A stretch of DNA of 64,000 nt from positions 62,001-126,000 of the forward strand of contig NZ_AP025144.1 in assembly GCF_019977755.1 (NCBI RefSeq), read 5' to 3'. Position numbers and translations under genes: made by a program. The notes below the pieces were generated by a model, which ran no database searches, had not been told where the DNA came from, and saw only the letters and a program-made list of their open reading frames with translations. Positions within the stretch are counted from its first letter, which is position 1. Every line of letters begins with the position of its first letter. Below, piece by piece: positions 3,380 to 49,447 of this stretch. The stretch is from Vibrio penaeicida. GTDB lineage: Bacteria; Pseudomonadota; Gammaproteobacteria; Enterobacterales; Vibrionaceae.

Positions 3380-4000
3380 TTAAAGCTCAAGTTGTTTGCG
3401 CAAGTTGGCAAAGTACTCTTCATTCAATTCAATTTTCAGCGCGACTGAGCGTGAACCACCTAGGTCGACTGATTTACCCAGACCAAAGCGAGCCGTTTTT
3501 ACGTTCATTTTTCGAAGGTAGCGCTCAATAGATGCTGTCGTTACAAAAACAAACTGCGTTGCTCCACCTTTTACCGCGAGCTCTCCTGCTTGCAACAACA
3601 AATCAAACGTGATTTTGCTTATGCCTTGAGAGTTGTGGTTGCGATCTGAAGTATCGACACCAAAACGGCTGATCTCCCAAACCTTATCGGTTGTCGGAGC
3701 TGCTTCACCCTGAAGTAATTGCGGGAAGGTATCGCGCAGCATGTAGAAGCCCGAACAAGGCAATAAACGCAAACAACCATTGATGTTGTCTTGAGCATCT
3801 TTCGAGTTCACGTAGATTGGGTTCAACTGGTCATACTCATCCATTTCCTGACCTGTGTTATCCACTTTCACATCCCATTTTAGCCGCGCAGAAAAGACAG
3901 ACGTTCGAAAGCGGAATAGCTCACGACGATTTGCTGTTGCCATATTAGCGGCTTGCGTGCTCGAACATGATGTTTGGTAGTGTGAAAGTAGCGCAGTCAT
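3380..4000 (-). CDS. LuxI-family acyl-homoserine-lactone synthase
   Basis: 206-aa autoinducer synthase that makes an N-acyl-homoserine lactone from SAM and an acyl carrier. The conserved LuxI residues are readable: the N-terminal R-x-R-x3-F ('LFRFRTSVF'), the W of 'RLKWDVK', E/D/D in 'QEMDEYD', R in 'CLRLLP', F in 'LRDTFPQLL', and E and R in 'WEISRFGVD'. AGGGA lies about 9 nt before the ATG. The N-terminus is about 10 residues longer than in V. fischeri LuxI, and Met20 could be an alternative start. It is the LuxI type, not the LuxM/AinS type also found in vibrios. It diverges from gene 4157-4558 with a dyad between them, and its likely receptor is the LuxR protein 14 kb away at the other end of the island. 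The acyl chain cannot be read from sequence. Confidence 0.93.
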   Translation of the reverse strand: MTALLSHYQTSCSSTQAANMATANRRELFRFRTSVFSARLKWDVKVDNTGQEMDEYDQLNPIYVNSKDAQDNINGCLRLLPCSGFYMLRDTFPQLLQGEAAPTTDKVWEISRFGVDTSDRNHNSQGISKITFDLLLQAGELAVKGGATQFVFVTTASIERYLRKMNVKTARFGLGKSVDLGGSRSVALKIELNEEYFANLRKQLEL

Positions 4001-4156: not shown

Positions 4157-4558
4157 ATGCAAGACATTTATATCCTAAACCACACTAAGGTTTTAGAAGG
4201 ATTACCTTTAAACAAACCCAACCCAATGGCGGTTGTGCTGACTGAAAATGGACGCTATGCCGGTGAGTTTTGGGGGCAATATGCATGGAAAAACACAGTC
4301 GCCCATTTGAATGTGGTGCAGCTGGATTCCTTTTCGGTGTACGTCAATCGTTACCCGTCGGATGATGAATGGGAAGAGTTCATCAAAGTTTTGGATCTGA
4401 GCCCGACAAAGCTGGTGGTGTGCGATCAAGCGAGCAATCCAAAATGCATTTCCGCCATTAAAGAAAAAGGCATTACTTTTGAAAATATGGCGATCAACTT
4501 TAGCAAGATGAGACCAGGTCTCTTGTCTTCCCCTCGGTATTTCCAACGGTTAATTTAA
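4157..4558 (+). CDS. Hypothetical protein, divergent from the AHL synthase
   Basis: 133 aa, not recognised. It is a soluble mixed alpha/beta protein without signal peptide or membrane segment, with two Cys near the middle ('VVCDQASNPKCI'). The ribosome binding site is weak. It is the first + strand gene of the island, 132 bp ahead of the N-hydroxylase operon, and faces the AHL synthase across the lux-box-like dyad. Codon use and sense-strand openness support it being real. Its position suggests quorum control and a possible part in the pathway that follows, but nothing in the sequence gives a function. Confidence 0.6.
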   Translation: MQDIYILNHTKVLEGLPLNKPNPMAVVLTENGRYAGEFWGQYAWKNTVAHLNVVQLDSFSVYVNRYPSDDEWEEFIKVLDLSPTKLVVCDQASNPKCISAIKEKGITFENMAINFSKMRPGLLSSPRYFQRLI

Positions 4559-4690: not shown

Positions 4691-5992
4691 ATGATTTATG
4701 ACGTTATTGGTATAGGTTTTACCGCTAACTTGGCAATTGCCGCAACGATTGAAGAGCAAGGGTTTAATGAACAGTCGACCCATTTATTTATTGAAAGTAA
4801 GTCAGAGTTTGATTGGCATCCAGGTATGTTAATTGAAGGTGCAAGAATGCAAATTTCTTATCACAAAGACTTAGCGACAATGCGCTCACCAACCAGCAAG
4901 TTTACTTTCTTAAATTACCTTGATGAATGTGGAAGACTGGAAAGCTTTGTTAACCTGCAAGAATTCTATCCGACACGTCATGAATATCGCGATTACTTAA
5001 AATGGGCAGCAAATCAGCTTAAAGGTTACGTGAATTACGGTGAGAAGGTGGTGGATATCACTCCTGTGATGAATGGTAATGACGAAGTGAGCTATATCAA
5101 CGTTCACACGGTCAACGCTGAAGGAAAGAAAGCACGATACCAAGCGAAAAATATCATTACTTCATCGGGCTTAGTGCCAAAGCTGCCAGAAGGCATCCAT
5201 GCCAGCGCCAGTCAAAATGCCTATCATTCCTCGCAATTCTTACCCAGTTTGGAGAACAAGTTCTCAGATACGTCGTTCCCATGGGAGTTTCTTGTTGTAG
5301 GTTCCGGCCAAAGTGCGGCAGAAATTACTAAGCATTTACTCAACCATTACCCAAATGCGACCGTTAATTCGACGATCCGAGAATATGCGTATAAGCCAGC
5401 CGACAGCAGTGAATTTGTAAATGAAATCTTTGCCTACAGCACGATTGATGATTTTTACAAACTGGAAGCGAATGACAAACAGCGAATCATCAATAAATAC
5501 AAAGACACCAATTATTCTTGTATCGATCCACCATTAATTCGAGAGCTGTATCAAATGAAATACGATATGAGCGTTTCCGGTGACGAGCGATTTAAATTAA
5601 ATAATTTCCAAGAATTAAAAGAAATTAAACACACGCCAAATATGTACCATGTTGGTACGGCTTATTTTGAAAATACCAACACCAAAGAGCAAACCGAAGT
5701 GCCTTATCACGGCGTGTTTTTAGCAACAGGCTACCATGATAGAAATAACCTAGATCTCACTCAAAAGTTGTTTGATTGGTTTGAAAAAGATGAATTAGGT
5801 CGACCAAAGCTCACTCGCCAATACCAAGTGAAAACGTCGGATAAATGCCATGCTGGCATCTTTATGATTGGCAACAATGAACACAGCCACGGTCTTAGTG
5901 ACACCTTGCTCTCGATTCTGCCAGAAAGAGCAATGGACATTATGAACGAAATAAATAGCGCCAAACCGAATTACAACATTAAAGCGGCGTAA
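4691..5992 (+). CDS. Lysine/ornithine N-monooxygenase family enzyme (Spb38/Tri26-like)
   Basis: 433-aa flavin- and NADPH-dependent N-hydroxylase of the IucD/PvdA/SidA family. The FAD site is the degenerate 'GIGFTAN' at residues 7-13, followed by the family block 'MQISYHKDLATMRSPTSKF' (53-71). The NADPH site is 'VVGSGQSAAE' (202-211), and 'ATGYHDRN' lies near the C-terminus. AAGGAA precedes the ATG. In siderophore loci this enzyme feeds an acylase and NRPS or NIS synthetase, none of which is here. The next gene is a cupin-MetRS fusion, the arrangement of hydrazine pathways (s56-p1 Spb38-Spb40, triacsin Tri26-Tri28), so N6-hydroxylysine (possibly N5-hydroxyornithine) is the predicted product. 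Pairing and order make this more likely than a siderophore role. Confidence 0.88.
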   Translation: MIYDVIGIGFTANLAIAATIEEQGFNEQSTHLFIESKSEFDWHPGMLIEGARMQISYHKDLATMRSPTSKFTFLNYLDECGRLESFVNLQEFYPTRHEYRDYLKWAANQLKGYVNYGEKVVDITPVMNGNDEVSYINVHTVNAEGKKARYQAKNIITSSGLVPKLPEGIHASASQNAYHSSQFLPSLENKFSDTSFPWEFLVVGSGQSAAEITKHLLNHYPNATVNSTIREYAYKPADSSEFVNEIFAYSTIDDFYKLEANDKQRIINKYKDTNYSCIDPPLIRELYQMKYDMSVSGDERFKLNNFQELKEIKHTPNMYHVGTAYFENTNTKEQTEVPYHGVFLATGYHDRNNLDLTQKLFDWFEKDELGRPKLTRQYQVKTSDKCHAGIFMIGNNEHSHGLSDTLLSILPERAMDIMNEINSAKPNYNIKAA

Positions 5993-6020
5993 TGATTGTC
6001 TGTCTGTTCATTGGAGATCT

Positions 6021-8030: not shown

Positions 8031-8952
8031 GAAAATTGCAATTGTAGGGCCATTAACCGGGCCACGCTCTGCTTATGGTGACTTGTTGACGTCGGCGGCG
8101 AACGCGGCACTGTCTGCTCATCCTATATCCGCAAAAGCTGTATCTACAAAGGCAGTATCTACAAAAGCTACATCCACCCAAGCGGTATCGGAAGGGGTCG
8201 AGTTTGTTTATATGGATGACCAAGCTTTACCTCATGTTGCGGATGCGGTTGCAAAAGCGCTGATTGAAGAAGGGGTGACTGCGGTCATCGGGCATTTCAA
8301 CAGCGCATGTGCAGCAACCGTGAAAGATCAATATGAGAACGCTGGCATTGTGTTTGTGCTGCCAGCTTCAACCGGTGATGACCTCACCGAGCAGCCGAGC
8401 CGCTACCGTTTTCGACTGTGCGCCAGCAACACAAAACAATGCGAAGTGGTTGCAGAACTATTGGATGCCCAAAGTGGTTCGCACATGGTGGTATCGGATG
8501 GTTCTCCTTATGCCGAAGGGCTGGCGACGGTGCTCGCGAGTACTTATGGGTACCGAGTGATTCATCAAGAAAACTTGTATGAACAAACCACGTTTGATTT
8601 CGACAACGTGTTTCTAGCCGGTACGCATTTCTCGTGTGCGGATATGCTGAACCATTTAAACCGGCATGCCTTTACTGGGCGGGTTGTGGGTTGCGACGAT
8701 TGCGATATTGAAGAGATTGAGACCTTATTAACGCCACCCTATTCCATAGAAGTGATGAAGCTGGATAACGGCTTTGAATTCTATATTCGTCATGGGGTGA
8801 AAGCCGTTTTAGACATTCTGTATGACGATTCCGATGTCAGCAATTTGGACATGGCTGATCGTTTGCGGTGTTCTGCATCCTCATTTCGCTTTAATGAATA
8901 TGGGGATAACACGTTGTCGACTTGGCATCACTTGACCATTAAGGAGCAGTGA
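8020..8952 (+). CDS. Cytoplasmic LivJ-like (type I periplasmic-binding fold) protein
   Basis: 310 aa from a GTG with GGAGG 9 nt upstream; it overlaps the preceding stop by 11 nt. The N-terminus 'KKIAIVGPLTG' and the pattern that follows ('VIGHFNSACA', 'VFVLPASTGDDLT', 'YAEGLATVL') resemble branched-chain amino-acid receptors of the LivJ/AmiC fold. No signal peptide is present, so it probably works in the cytoplasm. Between the first strand and the rest is a short Ala/Val/Ser/Thr/Lys repeat of 5-6 residue units (about residues 36-55), an apparent slippage expansion. The role is unknown: a ligand sensor, or a binding or chaperone partner for a pathway intermediate, is possible. Its place inside the operon argues that it belongs to the pathway. 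Confidence 0.75.
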   Translation: MANKKIAIVGPLTGPRSAYGDLLTSAANAALSAHPISAKAVSTKAVSTKATSTQAVSEGVEFVYMDDQALPHVADAVAKALIEEGVTAVIGHFNSACAATVKDQYENAGIVFVLPASTGDDLTEQPSRYRFRLCASNTKQCEVVAELLDAQSGSHMVVSDGSPYAEGLATVLASTYGYRVIHQENLYEQTTFDFDNVFLAGTHFSCADMLNHLNRHAFTGRVVGCDDCDIEEIETLLTPPYSIEVMKLDNGFEFYIRHGVKAVLDILYDDSDVSNLDMADRLRCSASSFRFNEYGDNTLSTWHHLTIKEQ

Positions 8953-10046
8953 TGAGCACCAACCAACGACAATTTGATTGGGTCATTATTGGGGCGGGTG
9001 TGATCGGCTGTGCCATTGCGCGTGAATTGTCACTGCAATCGAATTTCAGTGTTGCTCTGATTGAACAAAACCGAGTGGGCAGTGGCGCGACGCTTTATTC
9101 CGGTGGTTTTGTTCGTGTGATTCACAGTGAAGATCACATCACAGAGATGGCCAAGGAAAGCCTGCCATTTTTTCTTCAGCATAAAGAAGAGACAGGGTTT
9201 GACGAAATTGGCACGCTCTTTGTGCCAACGACTGAGAGCCTTGAGACCATTTCAGAATGGGTTCGAACGACGAGTACGAATGAGCACCCTATCTATTTGA
9301 AACAAGTGAAGTCACTACCAGAAGAGCTTCGGAAGATTCTCCCTAAGCGGTTGGATGCGGATTACGTTGTCTGGGAGCCAGTGAGTGGCTACGCCGACCC
9401 CCTCAAATCAACCTTATGGCTTTCCAATGAAGCACAGAAAAATGGCGTCGAGCTGTTTGAGTCAACCCAAGTGCAGTCGATTGACACCCATGGTCATGAT
9501 GGGTTTCAACTGACGACAAGCGATCAGGTCATACTGACGAATGGGCTGATTGTTTGCACGGGAGCATGGAATTCATTGGCAGGAGATGCGTTTGACTTAT
9601 CCGACGTTCAGCGCCCTAAAGCCATTCAAGCGGAATTCATGCGCTCACAGCCTTTGCCCTCCCAGCATCCTGCGCTCATTGTGGGGGATCCAGATGTTTA
9701 CATGCGCCCTATTGGTGGTGATACCTGGTTAGTCGGCACAGCGACCAGCGAGTGGGATATTGATGTGGAATCGCCAAGGCGTAAAGACATCACCCACACC
9801 GATCTGACTAAAGAAACCGTCTCGCAAGCGTTGAATATTCAAAAAGACGCTCTTAACGCTTTAGGCGCGAGAGTTGGATTTGATGGTTATACCTACGGAA
9901 AAACAGGGTACTTAGGGGCGAAATCCAAGTACAAAAATGTCCTTTTTGCCACCGGTTGGAGCGGCATGGGATTTAAGCTTTTTCCATCCATCGCCAAACG
10001 TATATCTCACCTCGCGACTCAATCAAGGAATGATGTGTATGAGTGA
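8952..10046 (+). CDS. FAD-dependent amine/glycine-oxidase-like enzyme (DAO fold, Spb39/Tri27-like)
   Basis: 364 aa. The Rossmann FAD motif 'IIGAGVIG' is at residues 12-19, and the DAO-family C-terminal FAD stretch 'FATGWSGMGFKLFPSIAKRI' is present. ATG 8952 has AAGGAG 5 nt upstream and overlaps the previous stop by one base. In the s56-p1 and triacsin pathways an oxidase of this family acts after the cupin-MetRS enzyme and oxidatively cleaves the lysine-glycine hydrazine to release hydrazinoacetic acid. The same step is inferred here. The gene overlaps the next gene by 8 nt, so all the catalytic genes are translationally coupled. Sarcosine- or glycine-oxidase activity on another substrate cannot be excluded. 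Confidence 0.83.
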   Translation: MSTNQRQFDWVIIGAGVIGCAIARELSLQSNFSVALIEQNRVGSGATLYSGGFVRVIHSEDHITEMAKESLPFFLQHKEETGFDEIGTLFVPTTESLETISEWVRTTSTNEHPIYLKQVKSLPEELRKILPKRLDADYVVWEPVSGYADPLKSTLWLSNEAQKNGVELFESTQVQSIDTHGHDGFQLTTSDQVILTNGLIVCTGAWNSLAGDAFDLSDVQRPKAIQAEFMRSQPLPSQHPALIVGDPDVYMRPIGGDTWLVGTATSEWDIDVESPRRKDITHTDLTKETVSQALNIQKDALNALGARVGFDGYTYGKTGYLGAKSKYKNVLFATGWSGMGFKLFPSIAKRISHLATQSRNDVYE

Positions 10047-10995
10047 TTACTCTGCGACAAAAAACACCGAAAATCAGGGTATTTTACTGATCTTCTCTTT
10101 CAATATTCTGTCGGGTGTTCAGGCGGTTTATTTATCGGGCATGCTGCAAAAAGCCGATGTCTTTTCAACGCTTATCCTGACTTTTCTCCTCGTCAGCTTG
10201 TATTTTTACGTGGCTCAATCGATCAGTAAAAAGCCATTGGTTGAAACTCGATGGAAAGATTGGATAGGGGTGAACCTCACCACGGCGGGTAGCTGGCTTG
10301 GTTTCTTTATAGCGCTTAAATACATTGAGCCTGCTATTTCCAGTGCGTTAGCCAACTCAATTGGACCATTAGTTACGATTCTAATTACGGTCTTTATTCT
10401 TAAGACCGATAAGCTGAGTGCACCGCAAATGGTCACTGCATTAGGCGTAATGGCGAGCATGATATTCATGATTAATTCGACCTTCAGTGGTAACTCTGCG
10501 ATGGGACACATTGATCGTGATGATGCGATATTGGGTGTGGTGATGTCCTTTGTGTGTGGTGTTTCCATGGCGCTTAACACGTTGGCATCCAAATCTTTAA
10601 ATCAGAAAGGGGTGACACCTGGCCAAATCATGTCGAAGCGATTTCTTTTGCTTATCGGTATAGCTTTTGTGTTGAGTGATAAACCCGTTTTGGTCTATAC
10701 CGCCACGACCTTTTATTGGGAAATCCTGATGATAGCGGTGATCGGAAACATTATTCCTTTGTATTGCTTACAGCTGGGTATCAAGAAGTCGGACCCGTTA
10801 ATCGTGAGTTTCTCGTTAGTCGCTGCGCCGATTATTTATCTCTTCATTCAGATGTTTAATTCGAGACTTACCTTTTCTATGGAATCGCTGATAGGCACCA
10901 GCTCCGCCATTATTTTTGTGGTGATTGGCATCTATTTAAAGCAGAAAAGAGCCGTGAATCAGCCAAAAGAAGAGCCGCTGCAAAGCGCCAAGTAG
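10039..10995 (+). CDS. EamA/DMT-superfamily transporter, predicted product exporter
   Basis: 318 aa with about ten hydrophobic helices in two repeated halves, the EamA (drug/metabolite transporter) layout. ATG 10039 has AAGGA 9 nt upstream; two earlier ATGs (10030, 10033) are too close to it. It overlaps the oxidase gene by 8 nt. EamA proteins commonly export amino acids and amino-acid-derived metabolites, so its place inside the operon suggests export of the finished hydrazine compound and self-protection. Direction and substrate are inference. Confidence 0.85.
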   Translation: MSDYSATKNTENQGILLIFSFNILSGVQAVYLSGMLQKADVFSTLILTFLLVSLYFYVAQSISKKPLVETRWKDWIGVNLTTAGSWLGFFIALKYIEPAISSALANSIGPLVTILITVFILKTDKLSAPQMVTALGVMASMIFMINSTFSGNSAMGHIDRDDAILGVVMSFVCGVSMALNTLASKSLNQKGVTPGQIMSKRFLLLIGIAFVLSDKPVLVYTATTFYWEILMIAVIGNIIPLYCLQLGIKKSDPLIVSFSLVAAPIIYLFIQMFNSRLTFSMESLIGTSSAIIFVVIGIYLKQKRAVNQPKEEPLQSAK

Positions 10996-11008
10996 TGAGG
11001 GACACAGT

Positions 11009-11122
11009 ATGCAGATTTCGATATGCGAAGCGAAAGATGAGTCGTTAAGGCTCGGACGATTGGATGCGGACGCCATCAATGCTTTGGTGGAAAAAGAAAG
11101 GAAAGGAGTTCACCATGAATAA
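11009..11122 (+). CDS. Small ORF (37 aa) coupled to ATP-grasp gene
   Basis: ATG at 11009 with GAGG 8 nt upstream; the stop overlaps the ATP-grasp start region (11115-11122). The peptide is charged, with one Cys near the N-terminus ('MQISICEAKDE') and a His-His-Glu end. It could be a coupling leader, a small carrier or scaffold peptide for the ligase, or chance. The well-placed ribosome site and the exact overlap are the only support. Confidence 0.4.
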   Translation: MQISICEAKDESLRLGRLDADAINALVEKERKGVHHE

Positions 11123-12368
11123 AGATTACGTCGTCATTGTCGACCCATATTCTAGCGCGTGTTTACTGCCACGAGATTTCAACGCTGCTGGTTTTGATTG
11201 TATTGCTGTGCACAGCCAAAAGACGATCCCATCAAACTATGCGGGCTCGTTTCACGCACAGGATTTTGTGGCTGAAACCGTATTTAACGATGTGGAGTTG
11301 TGCGCCCATTTTCTAAAAGAATACGCCCCCGTGGCGGTACTTGCTGGGGCTGAAAGTGGGGTGCAAAAAGCGGATTTACTCACGCATCATTTAGCGCTTT
11401 CCAGTAACGATTTTGCGCTTTCCTTGGCTCGCCGAGACAAATTTGAGATGCAGGAAGCCATTGCGAAGCAAGGCATTCGAGCGATCAAACAGCTAAAAAC
11501 GTCTCAGTTTGATGAAATAGAGCCTTGGCTTAAGTCGAATAATATTCAAGAGTTTATTATTAAGCCTTTGGCTTCGGCAGGTTCTGAAGGTGTCAGTAAG
11601 TGCTCGAATTTGGATGAGGCTAGAAAGGCGTTCGACAGTATTCTTCACTCTGAAGACATGTTCATGCAGCTCAACCAAGCGGTATTGGTGCAAGAATTTA
11701 TCCATGGGTCGGAATACGTTGTCGATACGGTATCGTGTGATGGAAAAAGTTTTGTCACCAACCTGTGCCGTTATCATAAATGCCAAGCGAATGGTTCGGA
11801 TGTGGTGTATCGAGAAATGGAGTTTCTACATCCAGAAGACGAGTCATTGCAAGAAATCATCGAATACAATCAAGGTGTATTGGATGCATTAGGCATTACG
11901 GTTGGTCCTGCTCACAGTGAGATTATGCTTTCTCCTGATGGACCTGTTCTGATAGAAGTAGGGGCGCGGATTCATGGCGGATACACCCCGAGAACCGTGC
12001 AGAATTTCTCTTCAGTGTCACAGTTAGATCTCACGGTAGATGCGTTTACCAATCACTCTCGCTTTAGGGAAAGAACGTCCCAACCTCCGACATTCCATAA
12101 GAAAGCATTGGTTCAGTTCTTTATTAGCACTGAAGAAGGAAAAGTAGAGGATGTGAATGGCAAGGAACAGCTGTCTAAGCTGGATTCTTACTTTGACTCG
12201 GTATGGGGGATTGCCCCGCAATCGAAGGTGTCGAAAACAGTCGACCTGTTTACATCGCCTGGTTGGGTTGTCCTTATGAACGAGAGCGCTAACGCACTGA
12301 ATAGGGACAAACAGGCTGCTATTGACTTAGAAGAGAACCACGAGCTTTATCGGTTGTCCTCTGTGTGA
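11115..12368 (+). CDS. ATP-grasp ligase, L-amino-acid-ligase (BacD-like) type
   Basis: 417 aa, start chosen at ATG 11115 behind AAAGGAG. ATP-grasp features are readable: the lysine strand 'EFIIKPLASAGSEGV', the 'VLVQEFIHGSEYVVD' strand, and the metal-binding C-terminal block 'HSEIMLSPDGPVLIEVGARIHGG'. Family members activate a carboxylate as acyl phosphate and couple it to an amine, often making dipeptides. As the last gene of the operon it is predicted to attach the hydrazine amino acid (or hydrazinoacetate) to another amino acid. With no NRPS or PKS nearby, the product would be a small dipeptide-like hydrazide. Partner substrates are unknown. Confidence 0.85.
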   Translation: MNKDYVVIVDPYSSACLLPRDFNAAGFDCIAVHSQKTIPSNYAGSFHAQDFVAETVFNDVELCAHFLKEYAPVAVLAGAESGVQKADLLTHHLALSSNDFALSLARRDKFEMQEAIAKQGIRAIKQLKTSQFDEIEPWLKSNNIQEFIIKPLASAGSEGVSKCSNLDEARKAFDSILHSEDMFMQLNQAVLVQEFIHGSEYVVDTVSCDGKSFVTNLCRYHKCQANGSDVVYREMEFLHPEDESLQEIIEYNQGVLDALGITVGPAHSEIMLSPDGPVLIEVGARIHGGYTPRTVQNFSSVSQLDLTVDAFTNHSRFRERTSQPPTFHKKALVQFFISTEEGKVEDVNGKEQLSKLDSYFDSVWGIAPQSKVSKTVDLFTSPGWVVLMNESANALNRDKQAAIDLEENHELYRLSSV

Positions 12369-12391
12369 TGGTGGTAATCTAACTTGTTAAA

Positions 12392-12420
12392 AGAGGCTGG
12401 TGCTCCCAGCCTCTTTTTTT
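12392..12420 (+). terminator. Terminator of the hydrazine operon
   Basis: AGAGGCTGG (12392-12400) and CCAGCCTCT (12406-12414) form a perfect 9-bp stem followed by seven T, 24 nt after the ligase stop. Confidence 0.93.
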
Positions 12421-12435
12421 ATGCCTGAAATCCAG

Positions 12436-12457
12436 TTCTCTATTCCTCGATAGAGAA
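12436..12457. promoter_or_regulatory. Palindrome upstream of the peptide locus
   Basis: TTCTCTAT (12436-12443), spacer TCCTCG, ATAGAGAA (12450-12457), perfect 8-bp arms. It lies just after the hydrazine-operon terminator and 153 bp ahead of the first peptide gene. It shares the 6-bp spacer and ATAG half-site with the dyad at 4080-4105 and may be an operator for the same LuxR protein; this is inference. A second short palindrome, AGGTATATACCT, sits at 12488-12499. Confidence 0.4.
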
Positions 12458-12610
12458 GCCACTGAACCAAATATATTAAGGTTATTTAGGTATATACCTA
12501 CCAAATATAATAGCTACTAGAAATAGGACTATAAGATTTGAGAGTTTTTATTTTTTCTGGTTTTTATAGAATGAAAACACTTAAGGAAAACAAGTAAAGA
12601 AGGAATTCAA

Positions 12611-12709
12611 ATGAAAGAAATTAATTTAGAAGAATTAAATGAAGTAACAGGCGCATATATGATTGGTGGCTGTTTTCCATTCCCAACTAAAAAGCCAAAA
12701 CTATTTTAA
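12611..12709 (+). CDS. Double-glycine leader peptide 1
   Basis: 32 aa. Leader MKEINLEELNEVTGAYMIGG, predicted core CFPFPTKKPKLF after the GG. AAGGAAT precedes the ATG. It is a substrate candidate for the C39-peptidase exporter at 14268-16409. An alternative cut after the earlier 'TGA' would give a longer core. Confidence 0.8.
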   Translation: MKEINLEELNEVTGAYMIGGCFPFPTKKPKLF

Positions 12710-12721
12710 TAAGGAAATAAA

Positions 12722-12811
12722 ATGAAAGTAATTAAAAAAGAAACAACGAAAAAAGTAAATGGCGCCATTGTTGAAGGTGGCTGTGTTATGAACCCTTGGG
12801 AGAGAAAATAA
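12722..12811 (+). CDS. Double-glycine leader peptide 2
   Basis: 29 aa; leader ends 'VNGAIVEGG', core CVMNPWERK. AAGGAAA precedes the ATG. The stop overlaps the next start by one base. Confidence 0.78.
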   Translation: MKVIKKETTKKVNGAIVEGGCVMNPWERK

Positions 12812-12897
12812 TGAAAGTCCTTGATCTAAAAATGTTGAACGCCGTTTCTGGTGGTAGCCAATGGGTTGTGTGTGATTTTGGTGAAACCACAGAGTGA
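12811..12897 (+). CDS. Double-glycine leader peptide 3
   Basis: 28 aa; leader MKVLDLKMLNAVSGG, core SQWVVCDFGETTE. It starts on the last base of the previous stop codon, so translation is coupled. The leader has the canonical hydrophobic spacing before GG. Confidence 0.8.
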   Translation: MKVLDLKMLNAVSGGSQWVVCDFGETTE

Positions 12898-12907
12898 AGG
12901 TGAAGCT

Positions 12908-13006
12908 ATGGACAATGCGAATTGCATTAAGTCAGCCAGTCACTACCCAGGTAAGAACAGTCGATCGGACTCGCGTCTGTTCTTAAAAAACCGCGTAGTG
13001 GAATAG
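12908..13006 (+). CDS. Small ORF between peptide genes and exporter
   Basis: 32 codons, begins 'MDNANCIKSASHYPGK', with an AAGG about 7 nt upstream. It lacks the leader and GG of its neighbours and contains a 9-bp hairpin. It may be a divergent peptide, a regulatory leader ORF or chance. Confidence 0.3.
   Translation: MDNANCIKSASHYPGKNSRSDSRLFLKNRVVE
12952..12985. other. Hairpin between peptide genes and exporter genes
   Basis: TAAGAACAG (12952-12960) and CTGTTCTTA (12977-12985), perfect 9-bp arms, 16-nt loop, followed by A rather than T. It is therefore not a classical terminator for this strand. It could limit read-through or process the transcript so that peptide mRNA exceeds exporter mRNA. 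Confidence 0.5.
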
Positions 13007-13029
13007 CCAAACGTTGAGCCGGAGGGAGT

Positions 13030-14271
13030 ATGTCTGAAGAATCGTTATTCAGAAAAAAAGCCAAAGAAGCCTATTTTAAAAGGCTGGATGGCAAAGTCAT
13101 TATAAATACGCATTTGTCACATTGGTGGGTTACGTTGCTCATCGCCTTAATTGTTACCTTTGTGGTGCTATTTATTAGTTTTGGTTCTTACTCTCCAAAG
13201 GCTCAGGCGACGGGGTATTTACTCCCTGAAAATGGGCTAAGTGAGGTGTACTCAACATCGAACGGGTATTTGAGTGAGGTGTACATAGAGGAGGGGCAGT
13301 TAGTCAAAAAAGGGCAGCCGTTGGCAACGATAAGCTATGAGCGGTATGTCGAAACAGGTGAGGCGAGTAGCCACCAATTAAGAGCTCTGACAAAACAAAT
13401 GATAACGACACTGAATCACCAGATTCAGACAACCAATGATATTTACCAATCTAAAATGTCATTGATTGATAATAAAAAGAAAATGCAGAATTCAACGATA
13501 TCCCGTAATGGAAATCGGCTTAAGAATATAAATAATAAAATAAGAATAGAAAGTAAGAAATACAATAAATTAAACACACTATATAAAGATAAATATATAT
13601 CTGAAGATGTTTTGCTTCAACAAGAAGTCTTACTCTCAACACTCAATATAGAGAGAGATGATCAGCTGTCGCAATTGGATATTGCCAAGCAAGAATTATT
13701 AGCGCTGAACGTAGAACACGAACTATTGGAGCGTCAGCGTAAAACTGAAATAGCGAACTTAGAACAAAAAATCGATCAGCTAGAGCATTCGGAAATAGAA
13801 AGCCTGAGCAGTAAAGGTGAAACGTTAATTGCCAAAGTGTCTGGCAGGGTACGCTCTGTCGCCGTAAGACCCGGTGAACGTATTGAACTCGACACACTGG
13901 CGATGACCATTGTGCCAGAAGAGAGTGAACTGCACGTCGAAATGCAAGTGTCTTCAAACAGCTTAAAAATGGTGGAAGTCGGGCAAGAAGTACAAGTGAA
14001 GTTATCGGCTTTCCCTTACCAAAAATACGGAACATTAACGGGTGTAGTCAGCTACATCGCGGATACGGCAAGTGTCGATAAAGATTCGGCAAAAGCAGCA
14101 AGCTACAGGCTATTAGTGAGTTTGCCGCAGCAAAGCATTGTGGATGGATCGATTCGTCATGACCTAACAGTAGGCATGCAAGCAATCATCGATATCAAAG
14201 GGAAGTCCATGCCTATCATGACATGGCTATTGGAACCAATTCGGTACGCAAAGGAGCAATTTGAAATATGA
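13030..14271 (+). CDS. HlyD/CvaA-type periplasmic adaptor of peptide exporter
   Basis: 413-aa membrane-fusion protein. One membrane helix lies near residues 33-55 ('WWVTLLIALIVTFVVLFISF'), then a lipoyl-like half ('VYIEEGQLVKKGQPLATI'), long coiled-coil hairpins (about 110-250), the second lipoyl half ('ETLIAKVSGRVRSVAVRPGERI') and a beta-barrel. GGAGGGAG precedes the ATG. It bridges the inner-membrane ABC exporter to a TolC-type outer-membrane channel, which must be encoded elsewhere. It overlaps the exporter gene by 4 nt (ATGA), as in microcin (cvaA-cvaB) loci. Confidence 0.92.
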   Translation: MSEESLFRKKAKEAYFKRLDGKVIINTHLSHWWVTLLIALIVTFVVLFISFGSYSPKAQATGYLLPENGLSEVYSTSNGYLSEVYIEEGQLVKKGQPLATISYERYVETGEASSHQLRALTKQMITTLNHQIQTTNDIYQSKMSLIDNKKKMQNSTISRNGNRLKNINNKIRIESKKYNKLNTLYKDKYISEDVLLQQEVLLSTLNIERDDQLSQLDIAKQELLALNVEHELLERQRKTEIANLEQKIDQLEHSEIESLSSKGETLIAKVSGRVRSVAVRPGERIELDTLAMTIVPEESELHVEMQVSSNSLKMVEVGQEVQVKLSAFPYQKYGTLTGVVSYIADTASVDKDSAKAASYRLLVSLPQQSIVDGSIRHDLTVGMQAIIDIKGKSMPIMTWLLEPIRYAKEQFEI

Positions 14272-16409
14272 GTTTTTTAAGTAATCTGAATTTTTCATTC
14301 AAAAACAAATTGCCCGTCTATTACCAAAGTGAAGTAGCGGAGTGTGGATTAACCTGTATCGCGATGATTGCTACGTATCACGGATACAAAACAGACATCG
14401 ATACATTGCGACAGCGCTTCCCCCTGTCGCAGAAAGGAACGGGTCTCAATGTACTGATTGATATCGCCTCAACATTGAAATTGAGTACAAGACCTCTCCA
14501 ATTGGACATGGAGCATCTAACCGAACTGAAGCTGCCTGCACTGCTGCACTGGAACTTCGATCACTATGTTGTGTTGAAATCTGTAGGTAAAAAGCACTGC
14601 ATCATTCATGACCCAGCGCTTGGTGAGCAAAAAGTATCGCTGGAGCAGGTATCAGAACAATTTACCGGTGTTGCGCTGGAGTTTATGCCAGCAGAAGAAT
14701 TCGAAGAAGTTAATGAAACAACGGAATTAGGCATCCGCCACTTGTGGTCAAGAATTCAAGGGTTACTGCCATCCATTACACAAATTTTAGCGCTAACGGC
14801 TTTTATCCAGATATTTGCTTTGTTAACCCCTTATTTTATCCAGCTAACGATAGATGAGGTTATTACCACCGGAGATAGCGACTTATTGATGGTACTCGGT
14901 ATTGCGTTTGTGAGCTTACACCTATTTAGGGCAATCACATTTGCACTACGAAGCTGGGTGGTCACGTTTGTCGCGACGCAACTGAATTACCAGCTCAGCA
15001 ATAACTTGTTTACGCACCTTATTCGATTGCCGTCAGACTTTTTTGCGAAGCGACACATTGGAGACATTACAAGCCGATTCTCATCGTTAGATGAAGTCAA
15101 TCGAATGCTCTCTACCGGATTTGTGGAAGCCTTTATTGATGGCGTGATGATGCTGACTGCCATAGGGATCATGTACTACTACAACGCATCATTAGCCAAT
15201 GTGGTCATGATTATGCTGGTGGCATATGTTGCACTGAGAACTCTGCTCTTTAAACCCATTAGAAGAGCTGTTCGAAACAAGCTGATAAACCAAGCGAATG
15301 AAGACTCGTACTTTTTAGAAAGCATCCGAGCGATACAAACTGTTAAATGTTTTGGTCATGAAGCGGAGCGAGTATCAGGGTGGCAAAACCGATACGCAGA
15401 TCAAATGAATGCTTCGGTAAGAAGCGAGCGACTGGGCATTATCCATAAATCGGCAGACCTATTTATCACAGGTGTAGAGCATGTACTGATTATTTGGATA
15501 GGCAGCATGTTAGTGATGGACCATGCAATGACCATTGGTATGTTGTATGCCTTCTTAAACTACCGACAAATGTTTTCAGACCAGTCACGTTCACTAGTGG
15601 AAAAGTGGTTCGAATTCAGAATGCTAAAGCTTCACTTGTCACGAGTTACCGACATTGTGATAGCGAAAAAAGAAGAACATGTACACAGCGAACGTGCCAA
15701 ATTAGAACCGATTAAAGGTGGTATTAAGCTTGAGAACGTCGCGTTCAGATACAGCCCTAATGATGATGATGTGATTGATGGTTTCGACTTAGAAATACAG
15801 CCCGGTGAATCCGTGGTGCTCACCGGAAACTCAGGATGCGGTAAGTCCACACTAATGAGAATGCTCACAGGGTTGGACCAGCCGACAAAAGGCAAAGTGC
15901 TGGTCGATGATATTGCTTTACAACACATGGGGTTAGCCGCTTATCGAGACGACATCGCAACGGTGATGCAGGACGACCAATTGCTCAGCGGTACGATACT
16001 GGACAACATTACTATGTTTGATAAAACACCCAATTTAGAGCAGGTAGGTAGGGCAGCTGGGCTCGCTGCGATAGGACAAGAAATTATGAAGATGCCCCTA
16101 GGCTTTCAAACCCTGATAGGGGATCTAGGTAGCACTCTCTCGGGTGGACAGAAACAGCGGATATTATTGGCAAGAGCCTTTTATAAACAGCCGAAAATAC
16201 TGTTTTTAGATGAAGCTACCAGCAGCCTAGATACAGAAAACGAAAAACACATTAACAACGTTATCAAAAAAATGGGCATCACCCGAATTTCGATAGCTCA
16301 CCGCAAAGAGACCATTGAGATGCACGATCGTGTCATCAAATTAGGTGAAAAAGGGCAGATACTCAGCGACAACAGACAGGAAAAACCAAAACTCGAAGCT
16401 TTGGCATAA
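14268..16409 (+). CDS. C39-peptidase-containing ABC exporter (PCAT, CvaB-like)
   Basis: 713 aa. An N-terminal C39 cysteine peptidase has oxyanion Gln20, Cys26 in 'ECGLTC', and a His and Asp in 'HWNFDHYVVLK' and 'IIHDPALG'. A six-helix transmembrane domain follows (about 165-430), then an ATPase with Walker A 'GNSGCGKST', signature 'LSGGQKQR', Walker B 'ILFLDEATSS' and H-loop 'SIAHR'. Such proteins cut double-glycine leaders and export the core peptide in one step. Eighteen leader-bearing peptides flank it. No modification enzyme (LanM, radical SAM, YcaO) or obvious immunity gene is linked, so unmodified or disulfide-containing peptides are expected. Confidence 0.95.
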   Translation: MSFLSNLNFSFKNKLPVYYQSEVAECGLTCIAMIATYHGYKTDIDTLRQRFPLSQKGTGLNVLIDIASTLKLSTRPLQLDMEHLTELKLPALLHWNFDHYVVLKSVGKKHCIIHDPALGEQKVSLEQVSEQFTGVALEFMPAEEFEEVNETTELGIRHLWSRIQGLLPSITQILALTAFIQIFALLTPYFIQLTIDEVITTGDSDLLMVLGIAFVSLHLFRAITFALRSWVVTFVATQLNYQLSNNLFTHLIRLPSDFFAKRHIGDITSRFSSLDEVNRMLSTGFVEAFIDGVMMLTAIGIMYYYNASLANVVMIMLVAYVALRTLLFKPIRRAVRNKLINQANEDSYFLESIRAIQTVKCFGHEAERVSGWQNRYADQMNASVRSERLGIIHKSADLFITGVEHVLIIWIGSMLVMDHAMTIGMLYAFLNYRQMFSDQSRSLVEKWFEFRMLKLHLSRVTDIVIAKKEEHVHSERAKLEPIKGGIKLENVAFRYSPNDDDVIDGFDLEIQPGESVVLTGNSGCGKSTLMRMLTGLDQPTKGKVLVDDIALQHMGLAAYRDDIATVMQDDQLLSGTILDNITMFDKTPNLEQVGRAAGLAAIGQEIMKMPLGFQTLIGDLGSTLSGGQKQRILLARAFYKQPKILFLDEATSSLDTENEKHINNVIKKMGITRISIAHRKETIEMHDRVIKLGEKGQILSDNRQEKPKLEALA

Positions 16410-16418
16410 GGAAATAAC

Positions 16419-16502
16419 ATGAAACAACTGACTCAATTACAAGTGAAAGAAATTAAAGGCGGATCTCATCAAGTTGATTTTGATAGAACGGTGTGTATTT
16501 AG
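16419..16502 (+). CDS. Double-glycine leader peptide 4
   Basis: 27 aa, 9 nt after the exporter stop with AAGGAAA upstream. Leader MKQLTQLQVKEIKGG, core SHQVDFDRTVCI. It is the first of 15 peptides downstream of the exporter. Confidence 0.8.
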   Translation: MKQLTQLQVKEIKGGSHQVDFDRTVCI

Positions 16503-16511
16503 GAATTAATT

Positions 16512-16592
16512 ATGAAAGAAGTAACTAAAGAAGAAATCATTAATATCGTGAATGGTGGTATGGGAAATACTTATTCGAATAACCCTTTTTAA
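16512..16592 (+). CDS. Double-glycine leader peptide 5
   Basis: 26 aa; leader ends 'IVNGG', core MGNTYSNNPF, the only clear core without Cys apart from peptides 8-11. AGGAATT lies upstream. Confidence 0.78.
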   Translation: MKEVTKEEIINIVNGGMGNTYSNNPF

Positions 16593-16647
16593 ACGATTTG
16601 CTAGATAATATTCGAGATATAAATTTAAATAAATAAGAGTGTGTATT

Positions 16648-16764
16648 ATGAAAGAAATAAGCGTAAATGATGTGAAAAAAGTAATAGGTGCAGGCACATG
16701 TTATGGCTGGGATACAGGTAGTGCATGCATTGGTATCTATGTACGATCTCCAGGTGAAAGATAA
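16648..16764 (+). CDS. Double-glycine-type peptide 6 (two-Cys loop group)
   Basis: 38 aa. Leader MKEISVNDVKKVIGA; the core begins GTCYGWDTGSACIGIYVR with two Cys eight residues apart, suited to one disulfide loop. Paralogue of the next gene, with an extra six-residue C-terminal tail. Confidence 0.8.
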   Translation: MKEISVNDVKKVIGAGTCYGWDTGSACIGIYVRSPGER

Positions 16765-16822
16765 ACTTCATCGAATATTACAAATTAAAATAGTAATAGT
16801 ATAAAAAAGTAGGAATTAAAAA

Positions 16823-16927
16823 ATGAAAGAACTAAATACAAATGAAGTTGAAAAAGTAACAGGTGCTGGTACGTGTTATGGTTGGGATACGGGTAATGCA
16901 TGCATTGGTATCTACGTTAGAAATTAG
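16823..16927 (+). CDS. Double-glycine-type peptide 7 (two-Cys loop group)
   Basis: 34 aa. Leader MKELNTNEVEKVTGA; core begins GTCYGWDTGNACIGIYVR, differing from peptide 6 by one residue over the shared 18. AGGAATT lies upstream. A 135-bp gap follows and may hold a promoter for the repeats downstream. Confidence 0.8.
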   Translation: MKELNTNEVEKVTGAGTCYGWDTGNACIGIYVRN

Positions 16928-17062
16928 TAAAAGAAGACAACTCCTCAATATTAACTTTTAGATAAATTAGTTATCAACCTCTAATGGTATATTTTTTAAA
17001 TCTATCATGAGCTGGTAATAGGGACTTTATTTTCTAATACAATATGGAAATAGGAATTAAAA

Positions 17063-17158
17063 ATGAAAGAGCTTACAACAGCAGAATTAGAAATGGTTTC
17101 AGGTGCTCGCTGGCAGCACGTTAAAGATTTCGTATTAGGCTTCATGTCAGAATTTTAA
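17063..17158 (+). CDS. Double-glycine-type peptide 8 (RWQH group)
   Basis: 31 aa. Leader MKELTTAELEMVSGA, core RWQHVKDFVLGFMSEF, which could form an amphipathic helix and has no Cys. First of four copies on an exact 113-bp period. Confidence 0.82.
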   Translation: MKELTTAELEMVSGARWQHVKDFVLGFMSEF

Positions 17159-17175
17159 TTGGAAAGGAATATAAA

Positions 17176-17271
17176 ATGAAAGAGCTTACAACAACAGAAT
17201 TAGAAATGGTTTCAGGTGCTCGCTGGCAGCACGTTAAAGATTTCGTATTAGGCTTCATGTCAGAATTTTAA
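17176..17271 (+). CDS. Double-glycine-type peptide 9 (RWQH group)
   Basis: 31 aa, core identical to peptide 8; the leader differs only by Thr for Ala at residue 7. AAAGGAAT lies upstream. Confidence 0.82.
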   Translation: MKELTTTELEMVSGARWQHVKDFVLGFMSEF

Positions 17272-17288
17272 TTGGAAAGGAATATAAA

Positions 17289-17384
17289 ATGAAAGAGCTT
17301 ACAACAGCAGAATTAGAAATGGTTTCAGGTGCTCGCTGGCAGCACGTTAAAGATTTCGTATTAGGCTTCATGTCAGAATTTTAA
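17289..17384 (+). CDS. Double-glycine-type peptide 10 (RWQH group)
   Basis: 31 aa, identical to peptide 8 in leader and core. Third unit of the 113-bp repeat. Confidence 0.82.
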   Translation: MKELTTAELEMVSGARWQHVKDFVLGFMSEF

Positions 17385-17401
17385 TTAGAAAGGAATATAA
17401 A

Positions 17402-17497
17402 ATGAAAGAGCTTACAACAACAGAATTAGAAATGGTTTCAGGTGCTCGCTGGCAGCACGTTAAAGACTTCATCCACGGTTTTATTTCAGAATTTTAA
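17402..17497 (+). CDS. Double-glycine-type peptide 11 (RWQH group, diverged)
   Basis: 31 aa, core RWQHVKDFIHGFISEF, so the changes are confined to the C-terminal half of the core. Fourth unit of the 113-bp repeat. Confidence 0.82.
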   Translation: MKELTTTELEMVSGARWQHVKDFIHGFISEF

Positions 17498-17515
17498 TAC
17501 GTAAGGAATAGATAA

Positions 17516-17623
17516 ATGAAAGAACTGAATACTCAAGAAATACAAGATGTAAACGGTACTTGCTCATCATGCTACGCATCAGGTCAAGCTTTAGCTCAAG
17601 CGATTAAAGAATTTTTTGCATAA
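17516..17623 (+). CDS. Double-glycine-type peptide 12 (CSxCY group)
   Basis: 35 aa. Leader MKELNTQEIQDVNGT, with Thr in place of the usual Ala/Gly at the cut site. The core begins CSSCYASGQALAQAIKEFFA with a C-x2-C pair at its N-terminus. Confidence 0.8.
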   Translation: MKELNTQEIQDVNGTCSSCYASGQALAQAIKEFFA

Positions 17624-17634
17624 GGAAACTAACA

Positions 17635-17742
17635 ATGAAAGAACTGAATACTCAAGAAATACAAGATGTAAACGGTGCTTGCTCATCATGCTATGCCGCT
17701 GGACAAGGGTTAGCAAGAGCCATTAAAGAATTTTTTGCATAA
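17635..17742 (+). CDS. Double-glycine-type peptide 13 (CSxCY group)
   Basis: 35 aa; leader MKELNTQEIQDVNGA, core CSSCYAAGQGLARAIKEFFA. Predicted mature N-terminus is Cys. Confidence 0.82.
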   Translation: MKELNTQEIQDVNGACSSCYAAGQGLARAIKEFFA

Positions 17743-17754
17743 GGGAAAATGACA

Positions 17755-17859
17755 ATGAAAGAGCTGAATACCCAAGAAGTACAAGACGTTAATGGTGCTT
17801 GCTCGGCATGCTATGCCGCTGGACAAGGTCTAGCACAATTCCTTAAAGAACTATTTTAA
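17755..17859 (+). CDS. Double-glycine-type peptide 14 (CSxCY group)
   Basis: 34 aa; leader MKELNTQEVQDVNGA, core CSACYAAGQGLAQFLKELF. Amphipathic helix pattern after the C-x2-C. Confidence 0.82.
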   Translation: MKELNTQEVQDVNGACSACYAAGQGLAQFLKELF

Positions 17860-17877
17860 TTGTTAGGTAATCTAAAA

Positions 17878-17982
17878 ATGAAAGAACTGAATACTCAAGA
17901 TGTACAAGACGTGAATGGCGCTTGCTCGGCGTGCTATGCCGCTGGACAAGGTTTGGCACAATTCCTTAAAGAACTATTTTAA
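17878..17982 (+). CDS. Double-glycine-type peptide 15 (CSxCY group)
   Basis: 34 aa; core identical to peptide 14, leader MKELNTQDVQDVNGA. It lacks the strong AAGGA of its neighbours (TTAGGTAA upstream), so it may be less expressed. Confidence 0.8.
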   Translation: MKELNTQDVQDVNGACSACYAAGQGLAQFLKELF

Positions 17983-18003
17983 TTGTTGTTAGGTAATCTA
18001 AAA

Positions 18004-18087
18004 ATGAAAGAACTAAATACTCAAGACGTACAAGAAGTGAATGGCGCATGTTGCATCTGCTGTATTATCGAAAGAATTCTACGCTAA
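18004..18087 (+). CDS. Double-glycine-type peptide 16 (CCxCC group)
   Basis: 27 aa; leader MKELNTQDVQEVNGA, core CCICCIIERILR: four Cys in the first five residues, then a cationic/hydrophobic tail. Confidence 0.8.
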   Translation: MKELNTQDVQEVNGACCICCIIERILR

Positions 18088-18103
18088 TTAAAAGGACGAA
18101 ATG

Positions 18104-18187
18104 ATGAAAGAATTGAATACTCAAGACGTACAAGAAGTGAATGGTGCATGTTGCATCTGCTGCATTATCGAAAGAATTCTACGCTAA
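18104..18187 (+). CDS. Double-glycine-type peptide 17 (CCxCC group)
   Basis: 27 aa, protein identical to peptide 16 (100-bp period). ATG 18104 preferred; ATG 18101 just before it would add one Met. AAAGGACG lies upstream. Confidence 0.8.
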   Translation: MKELNTQDVQEVNGACCICCIIERILR

Positions 18188-18203
18188 TTAAAAGGACGAA
18201 ATG

Positions 18204-18299
18204 ATGAAAGAATTGAATACCCAAGATGTACAAGAAGTGAATGGCGCATGCCTCAACAATGTTTGTGTTTTCGACATTATTGACCGGTTGATTAACTAG
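18204..18299 (+). CDS. Double-glycine-type peptide 18
   Basis: 31 aa; the leader is the same as in peptide 17 (MKELNTQDVQEVNGA), but the core is new: CLNNVCVFDIIDRLIN. The leader and upstream region are duplicated while the core is replaced, a cassette pattern. Last gene of the array. Confidence 0.8.
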   Translation: MKELNTQDVQEVNGACLNNVCVFDIIDRLIN

Positions 18300-18318
18300 T
18301 CACTTCAGTTAGAGATAA

Positions 18319-18340
18319 GCCTGGATCTTTTCCAGGCTCT
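18319..18340. terminator. Hairpin ending the peptide array
   Basis: GCCTGGA (18319-18325) pairs with TCCAGGC (18331-18337) across a TCTTT loop. It lies between the last peptide gene and the convergent luxR-type gene; the following T-tract is short. Confidence 0.65.
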
Positions 18341-18368
18341 CAATTCAACCAGACATCAGTGATTAAAA

Positions 18369-19076
18369 CTACAGTTTATCTGGTGCAATAACGCCGCCAA
18401 TGATGGCTTTAGCGATAGCATGATGTCGGTTGACCGCATCCAATTTATTGATGCAATTCTTGATATGGAAATTGATTGTACTTTCAGACACCCCAATGAT
18501 TTGAGAAGCTTCCCAAGAGGTTTTACCTTCGGCGGTCCAAGTCAGTACTTCTTTTTCTCTGTCTGTTAAGGTTTTTGGTTCACACACATTCACTCGGCTC
18601 ATAGCAGAATGAAGGTAAGGCCAAATAGAAAGCATGTTCGTTTCAATTTCAAATGCTTTATCATCCGGTATGTGTTCACTGTTCGCGATAGAAAACACAC
18701 CGATAGTGCCGCCTTTCCCATGGATAGGAATTGAAATTCCATCTTTTAGCCCATATTCGACGGCTTTTTCCATGACTTCTTGTTGGTCTGTTGGCATAGC
18801 ATCAAAGTCGCGGTGCCACAATATCGGAGCGACACCACTTTTGGCATACTCCAATACAGGATCGCTTTGGCGGTAATTGTGTTCGAAGTACCACTCCATC
18901 CAATCTTCTGGATAGTTGTTGATCAAAAACACATCGTAATGCTGTGTGTTTAATGGGGTAAATAATGCGATTAGGTAGTAATCGACTCCGAGTGTTTCAG
19001 TAATGTCGGCACATAGCCGTTTTAACTGAGGTTGAGTGGTCACTCCGTGACTACTTGAAATTAACTGTTTAACCAT
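18369..19076 (-). CDS. LuxR-family AHL-responsive transcription regulator
   Basis: 235 aa. N-terminal autoinducer-binding domain with the usual conserved residues: W and Y in 'WMEWYFEHNYRQSDPV', the following D-P, W in 'ILWHRDF' and G in 'YGLKDGISIPIHG'. The C-terminal LuxR helix-turn-helix is 'LTDREKEVLTWTAEGKTSWEASQIIGVSESTINFH...' (about 170-225). It is read toward the peptide array and is the likely receptor for the AHL made by the LuxI protein at 3380-4000; the two genes enclose the hydrazine operon and the peptide locus. The partnership is inferred from co-location, since luxI and luxR genes are usually adjacent. Confidence 0.93.
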   Translation of the reverse strand: MVKQLISSSHGVTTQPQLKRLCADITETLGVDYYLIALFTPLNTQHYDVFLINNYPEDWMEWYFEHNYRQSDPVLEYAKSGVAPILWHRDFDAMPTDQQEVMEKAVEYGLKDGISIPIHGKGGTIGVFSIANSEHIPDDKAFEIETNMLSIWPYLHSAMSRVNVCEPKTLTDREKEVLTWTAEGKTSWEASQIIGVSESTINFHIKNCINKLDAVNRHHAIAKAIIGGVIAPDKL

Positions 19077-49432: not shown

Positions 49433-49447
49433 GAATCAGCCACTCAA

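Follow-up and report, generated by a model that had tools for sequence, protein, structure and literature searches.

The locus described here lies on contig NZ_AP025144.1 of Vibrio penaeicida (NCBI RefSeq assembly GCF_019977755.1), within a stretch of 64,000 nucleotides (positions 62,001 to 126,000 of the forward strand) that was analyzed as a whole and is called the window; coordinates are counted from its first base. A previous sequence-only reading of this DNA had described 18 tiny double-glycine-type peptide genes around one peptidase-containing exporter, three before and 15 after it. We re-derived all 18 open reading frames (ORFs) with their coordinates, each encoding 26 to 38 amino acids (aa), and found the same layout, with peptide genes at 12611 to 12897 and at 16419 to 18299 on the two sides of an HlyD-type adaptor and a C39-peptidase ATP-binding cassette (ABC) exporter (Table 1). 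The central claim, that a single exporter serves many different short cores, holds. Core length had been put at 9 to 24 residues; the cores predicted in the window span 10 to 23 aa, so their shortness stands and the exact range does not. The earlier description of the array was therefore confirmed, but it was silent on two further properties of the locus, a fixed frame around a variable middle and a luxI/luxR pair on the flanks.

Table 1. Features of the peptide array and its flanks (positions in the window)
Feature	Position	Strand	Remarks
Framework peptide 1	12611..12709	+	Core YMIGGCFPFPTKKPKLF; in 4/4 array genomes
Framework peptide 2	12722..12811	+	Core IVEGGCVMNPWERK; in 4/4 array genomes
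Framework peptide 3	12811..12897	+	Core SQWVVCDFGETTE; in 4/4 array genomes
HlyD-type periplasmic adaptor (membrane fusion protein)	13030..14271	+	Pfam HlyD_3 above cutoff
C39-peptidase ABC exporter	14268..16409	+	Peptidase_C39, ABC_membrane, ABC_tran above Pfam cutoff
Framework peptide 4, opens downstream array	16419..16502	+	Core SHQVDFDRTVCI; in 4/4 array genomes
Variable peptide 5, singleton	16512..16592	+	Core MGNTYSNNPF
Variable peptide 6, two-Cys group	16648..16764	+	Core GTCYGWDTGSACIGIYVRSPGER
Variable peptide 7	16823..16927	+	Core GTCYGWDTGNACIGIYVRN
Variable peptide 8	17063..17158	+	Core RWQHVKDFVLGFMSEF
Variable peptide 9	17176..17271	+	Core identical to peptide 8
Variable peptide 10	17289..17384	+	Core identical to peptide 8
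Variable peptide 11	17402..17497	+	Core RWQHVKDFIHGFISEF
Variable peptide 12, amphipathic	17516..17623	+	Core CSSCYASGQALAQAIKEFFA
Variable peptide 13	17635..17742	+	Core CSSCYAAGQGLARAIKEFFA
Variable peptide 14	17755..17859	+	Core CSACYAAGQGLAQFLKELF
Variable peptide 15	17878..17982	+	Core identical to peptide 14
Peptide 16, module also present in G116 and G117	18004..18087	+	Core CCICCIIERILR
Peptide 17	18104..18187	+	Core identical to peptide 16
Framework terminal peptide 18	18204..18299	+	Core CLNNVCVFDIIDRLIN, identical in 4/4 array genomes
Conserved region upstream of peptide 1, presumed promoter	12460..12610	+	Conserved in 4/4 array genomes
Stem-loop between array end and luxR, possible shared terminator	18312..18341		Fold of 18306-18345, -16.8 kcal/mol, without shuffle control
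LuxR-type regulator, convergent with array	18369..19076	-	Autoind_bind 1.3e-31, GerE
LuxI-type acyl-homoserine-lactone synthase, other flank	3380..4000	-	Autoind_synth 8.4e-30

Every peptide has its own start and, as had been said of most, a likely ribosome site: one of the motifs AGG, GGA, GAG, or GGG lies no more than 20 nt upstream of the start in 18 of 18 cases, being short or further off for peptides 6, 15, and 16. Spacing in the downstream array is 9 to 21 nt, with exceptions of 55, 58, and 135 nt; upstream, peptides 2 and 3 share 1 nt. Sorting the cores by hand recovered the expected mixture of paralogous groups and singletons, in the window four groups (of two, four, four, and two members) plus six singletons. 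Peptides 8 to 11 are tandem copies with a period of 113 bp, which shows duplication. The core of each of frame peptides 1 to 4 (12611 to 12897 and 16419 to 16502) contains exactly one cysteine, making a dimer or mixed disulfide conceivable, and in frame peptides 1 and 2 a second GG stands just ahead of it.

Double-glycine leaders carry hydrophobic residues at positions -12, -7, and -4 and end in a GG- or GA-type pair. A strict pattern for such leaders matched 19 times in the 64 kb on both strands, each time inside the array locus. Three of the matches are alternative starts, leaving 16 of the 18 peptides covered; peptides 2 and 5 miss the pattern and were accepted as double-glycine type by eye. 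Shuffles of the whole window (n = 10) gave zero or one match each. When the array stretches were taken alone, 17 plus-strand matches representing 15 peptides stood against none in each of 200 dinucleotide shuffles; here the pattern script dropped peptide 18, which has fewer than 141 nt after its start. Single-peptide scans against Pfam and NCBIfam leader models, one covering six and another seven of the 18 peptides, returned only subthreshold matches. The array leaders are similar to the Gram-negative double-glycine motif M(R/K)ELX3E(I/L)X2(I/V)XG(G/A) quoted in PMC4462113 (this and the other papers given by PMC number are cited from excerpts of their text).

We compared the window's own genome (G000) with three relatives that carry the array, labeled G116, G117, and G175, a set consisting of V. 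penaeicida TUMSAT-NU1, V. penaeicida 6E01, and Vibrio sp. S9_S30. The three peptides upstream of the exporter and the first and last of those downstream are kept in all four genomes, whereas most of what lies between is replaced. The DNA of G116 and G117 is colinear with the window at 94 to 97% as far as base 16501, where peptide 4 ends. That of G175 is colinear at 88% over 12389 to 16501 and then at 83% from 18204 on; colinearity returns inside the last cassettes, at 18004 to 18204 depending on the relative. Between the frame ends lie different cores, and similarity is limited to matches of leader size and, in G117, a single stretch of 84 bp. Because both array boundaries fall on one G175 contig, the swap is not an assembly break. 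The sequence-only reading had proposed a comparison of core repertoires between strains, and in four genomes its outcome is a constant frame with swapped middle cores.

Peptide counts are 18 in G000 and 18 in G175. For G116 and G117, where the contigs break off within the array, they are at least 12 and at least 16, excluding an N-filled copy in G116 and copies cut off by a contig end. The total of 64 peptides holds 35 distinct cores, which we sorted by hand into 19 groups: M1 to M4 and M10 are present in every genome, M9 and M13 in three of them, and the other twelve in one or two. Each genome has five or six variable core groups. The array is mostly common to G116 and G117, and in G175 a run of five cassettes is present twice. 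Among M8, M9, and M10 units, from the same or different genomes, leader DNA is 88 to 95% identical and core DNA 33 to 36%, which suggests that one leader was joined to different cores or that cores were replaced behind it. Cysteine occurs in 27 of the 35 cores (two in fifteen, four in one), so disulfides may form in the multicysteine cores after export.

The cores evolve under purifying selection, with ratios of nonsynonymous to synonymous differences (pN/pS) of 0 to 0.24, given here as uncorrected proportions summed over nonindependent pairs with small counts. In the five frame peptides, core sites differ between the window and G175 by 34% at synonymous and 7% at nonsynonymous positions, and core pN/pS is 0.19 to 0.20, compared with 0.40 to 0.42 for the leaders. 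The paralogous variable groups RWQ, CSSCYA, GTCYGW, TCISS, and VIWIIK have core values of 0.06 to 0.24, and the CCICC group and six G116/G117 pairs each have no nonsynonymous core change against three synonymous ones. Since the cores are under purifying selection, the peptides are very probably translated and used; judged by this selection, they are genes.

The exporter carries Cys26, His99, and Asp115, a triad read off its motifs, together with Walker and signature motifs, and the spacing of the triad equals that of the CvaB catalytic triad Cys32/His105/Asp121 (PMC9746304). It falls under the curated cutoff of all NCBIfam models examined (25 of 194 listed), and the adaptor scores 151 bits against TIGR type_I_hlyD, under the cutoff of that model. 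An orthologue of the exporter, 98 to 100% identical, was found in 4 of 227 genomes of the genus, the window's own included; the next best score belongs to a protein 45% identical or, among 329 family genomes, to one 47% identical. Exporters of the same superfamily elsewhere adjoin none to three double-glycine peptides, judged by eye at 15 loci with wide flanks and at 43 with flanks of about 1.5 kb, many of the latter being narrower cuts of the same places and the 43 being surveyed for plus-strand matches only. At one of these loci, L070 (contig C48 of family genome G326), the match to a related exporter contains one TAA, and downstream of the exporter lie three double-glycine peptides of microcin-like length; this three-peptide set occurs twice on the contig, about 61 kb apart.

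A leader profile (A1) was built from the four array genomes' own peptides, and arrays with other leaders could therefore be missed. Across 226 genomes of the genus (E <= 0.05), 11 had a match, with 11 to 16 in each array genome and one or two in the seven others. The family search (324 genomes, E <= 0.001) likewise gave 11 genomes with a match, the seven others having one to six and G326 showing its three-peptide set twice. In the class (261 genomes), three genomes matched, including the window's own, and the other two had one match each.

Genes for acyl-homoserine-lactone signaling lie on both flanks. At E <= 1e-60, the luxR orthologue (97 to 99%) was found only in the four array genomes among 226 Vibrio genomes. 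The luxI gene was compared in two of the relatives: it is at the same place in G175, and its region is 95% identical in G116. This linkage points to quorum control of the array. A 20-mer upstream of peptide 1 (12496 to 12515) resembles a lux box and is similar to one upstream of luxI (4083 to 4102), but shuffled sequences equaled the best match between these regions 8 times in 60 and the combined score 19 times in 300. A pattern derived from the two 20-mers matches both perfectly, which is circular, and has no other perfect match in the genome; with one mismatch it finds two more places, compared with one for the reversed control. The unbiased shuffle test failed, and we keep 12496 to 12515 as no more than a weak lux-box candidate. 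Promoter and terminator scans gave no more than shuffle noise, and the stem-loop after the array was not flagged by the terminator scan.

Other genes stand between luxI and the array. A 133-aa protein without a Pfam match (4157 to 4558) adjoins luxI and is conserved in G175. Positions 4691 to 12368 encode a lysine/ornithine N-monooxygenase, a cupin-MetRS didomain protein, a periplasmic-binding-like protein, an FAD oxidoreductase, an EamA transporter, and a dapdiamide-synthase-like ATP-grasp protein, and look like a hydrazinoacetic-acid-type (N-N bond) cluster comparable to s56-p1 and azaserine (PMC10445470). This 7.7-kb cluster is missing in G175 except for a similar 100-bp piece, and the peptide locus therefore does not depend on it.

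The sequence-only reading had reported neither a clear immunity gene nor a linked maturase, and both statements stood up. In the window, the array lacks any plus-strand ORF that reaches 42 aa, and no candidate ORF was recognized by eye as common to the arrays. Antisense ORFs of 46 and 63 aa overlap peptides, as does a 51-aa ORF at 12851 to 13006 (peptide 3); the relatives also have antisense ORFs overlapping peptides, G175 several. G175 further has a hydrophobic plus-strand ORF of 66 aa (L031:10186-10386), out of frame with the last variable peptide and reaching into a 249-nt gap, which may encode a small membrane protein or be due to chance.

No maturase gene lies between 12611 and 18299, and no co-occurring one was found in trans in a survey limited to YcaO and graspetide/ATP-grasp genes. 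The window has a YcaO and TfuA pair of thioamidation type with a kinase-AAA-TPR protein and an FHA protein at 47118 to 55288. This YcaO, about 30 kb from the array, was found in G116 and G117 but not in G175, whose array is full, so the presence of an array does not require it. The ATP-grasp gene just upstream (about 11118 to 12368) was rejected as a maturase: it is above cutoff only for PRK07206, resembles dapdiamide synthase, has no MvdD match, and belongs to the cluster absent at the same place in G175. Elsewhere in the genome (L005:2390-8212, on C2 at about 2168389 to 2174211) is a graspetide-like cluster with a precursor of three APSDDDEG repeats, two MvdD-type ATP-grasp proteins, an HlyD-like protein, and a C39 exporter that shares 43% identity with that of the array.

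Peptides with double-glycine leaders and C39 exporters are a known kind, and so are polymorphic bacteriocin loci. The blp locus of Streptococcus pneumoniae combines double-glycine peptides, one exporter, quorum sensing, and strain-variable bacteriocins (PMC4860687), and the array resembles it in having one double-glycine exporter system for many peptides whose set varies between strains in a fixed structure; a fixed exporter frame with a lineage-variable peptide region was found in all four genomes. Unlike the array, blp is Gram-positive and has putative immunity genes and, besides a histidine kinase and a response regulator, a peptide pheromone (PMC4860687), whereas here we found flanking LuxI/LuxR, an HlyD adaptor, cores of 10 to 24 aa, and no immunity gene in the variable region.

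Class II microcins comprise one or few peptides, which are usually longer than these. Those of the colicin V type share with the array a GG/GA leader, a C39-ABC exporter, and a membrane fusion protein (PMC9746304), as does a microcin-type example from the Vibrionaceae, a plasmid locus of Aliivibrio wodanis (PMC4462113). However, class II microcins are defined with a cognate immunity protein (PMC9746304); because none was found near the array peptides as tested, we do not file the array in this class. Related exporter loci have at most three peptides convincing by eye, compared with 18 here. Conserved leaders with many hypervariable cores per genome are also described for the NHLP and Nif11-leader families (PMC2887384) and for prochlorosins, but the peptides of all these families are modified and have long leaders, with the GG of NHLP and Nif11 at mean positions 83 and 70 (PMC2887384), in contrast to 13 to 16 residues and no linked maturase here. 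EbfG1-4 of Synechococcus are encoded by adjacent GG-motif genes, and their secretion needs one C39 protein; these are four products of 6 to 7 kDa, and the excerpt describes no exchangeable array (PMC4997328). Neither our genus, family, and class genome searches nor the titles and abstract openings of open-license literature yielded another Gram-negative exchangeable array of 10- to 24-residue cores without linked immunity or maturase genes, and we therefore count the array as a new form of known kinds.

The reading that we favor, with about even confidence, is a bacteriocin-like competition arsenal, probably linked to quorum sensing, that works like blp and is made of exchangeable cassettes, each a ribosome site, a leader, and a core. 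It would be a type I secreted-peptide locus (C39-ABC and HlyD, presumably with TolC) with a fixed frame and an exchangeable middle, in which a cassette of mostly about 95 to 135 bp supplies a ribosome site, a GG/GA-type leader of 13 to 16 residues, and a core of 10 to 24 residues. At high cell density, LuxR, together with the flanking LuxI, would turn the operon on, the exporter peptidase would cut the leader after GA or GG, and the cores would leave via HlyD and TolC, unmodified apart from possible disulfides. Cassettes would be gained, lost, duplicated, and swapped while single cores stay under purifying selection, giving each lineage a different set of ready-made effectors, most likely against near relatives. 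The data show the array itself, selection on its coding sequences, the constant frame around a swapped middle, and the co-occurrence of luxR; export and processing, LuxR control, and antagonism we infer. As the exporter and frame are kept and the set is changed, conflict with near relatives, as in blp, is the likeliest role.

Several results weigh against an arsenal of this kind. The main argument is the missing immunity: no cognate gene was found at the locus, to which this search was confined. The cores are short, with charges of -3 to +3 that are near neutral in most (29 of 35 between -1 and +1), and the CSSCYA group preserves its leader better than its core (0.12 versus 0.24). No lux box was established upstream of peptide 1, where the shuffle test was not significant. 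Array-wide leader homogenization was not significant either (within minus between identity 0.011, reached in 29 of 500 permutations of 49 of the 64 peptides, excluding 12 upstream peptides and three with 13- or 16-residue leaders), and leader gene conversion across the whole array was rejected on this test, its support coming from the M8/M9/M10 leaders only. Finally, only four array genomes were compared. We regard as doubtful a more far-reaching version, in which the locus would be a quorum-controlled, immunity-free combinatorial system whose leader DNA acts as a homology arm making any core behind it exportable, producing a changing lineage-specific blend (a kin tag or cocktail) instead of classical bacteriocins with paired immunity.

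The sequence-only reading had left a choice between a bacteriocin arsenal and a set of secreted signals. Cassette swapping between relatives favors the former, since wholesale exchange is hardly to be expected of a conserved signal when the exporter stays almost unchanged. Signals or kin-recognition tags, a lineage-specific blend detected by sister cells with the frame peptides perhaps as a shared signal, are rather unlikely: the small near-neutral cores, the failure to find an immunity gene at the locus, the quorum-sensing genes on both flanks, and the frame peptides conserved at fixed places would all suit them, but no peptide receptor appeared among the neighboring genes scanned with Pfam between 3383 and 19076, and five or six variable core groups per genome are many for a signal.

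It is unlikely that the peptides are biofilm or surface-active agents (phenol-soluble-modulin-like or amyloid-like) selected for physical properties and not for exact sequence, because the exact core sequences are under purifying selection and most of the 35 cores have no significant periodicity. Periodicity does occur in some, as helical amphipathicity in three CSxCYA cores (reached in 0 of 500 shuffles) and in CLNNVC (0.004) and as strand-type alternation in three VIW cores (0.012 to 0.03), in 70 uncorrected hydrophobic-moment tests. One precursor was modeled as a helix (mean predicted local distance difference test score, 79) and another as strands (67), both models being of modest confidence and not used as fold evidence, and the double-glycine peptides EbfG1-4 enable biofilms in Synechococcus (PMC4997328).

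We give still less credence to host-directed peptides, acting on shrimp or another eukaryote. V. penaeicida is a shrimp pathogen, and a lack of immunity genes fits a nonbacterial target; however, nothing host-specific was recognized in the sequences, and cassette turnover between near relatives appears to fit intraspecific conflict better. Precursors of ribosomally synthesized, posttranslationally modified peptides, processed in trans by an enzyme that is encoded away from the locus, are very improbable despite the many cysteine-containing cores, the nearby YcaO-TfuA pair, and the closest exporter paralogue sitting in a graspetide cluster, given that G175 has the array without a match to the YcaO, that the graspetide genes are on the other large contig, where they have an exporter of their own and a repeat precursor of a different kind, and that no core motif is common to all groups.

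Two questions can be tested on the array: what lets a producer survive its many effectors when no immunity gene is linked, and whether the exchange of cassettes is driven by leader DNA. Should the cores prove active, the locus would constitute a compact natural library of secreted peptides of 10 to 24 residues, with 35 distinct cores from four genomes and neither a maturase nor an immunity gene linked to them, and would show a Gram-negative bacterium remodeling its secreted arsenal by cassette swaps behind one exporter.

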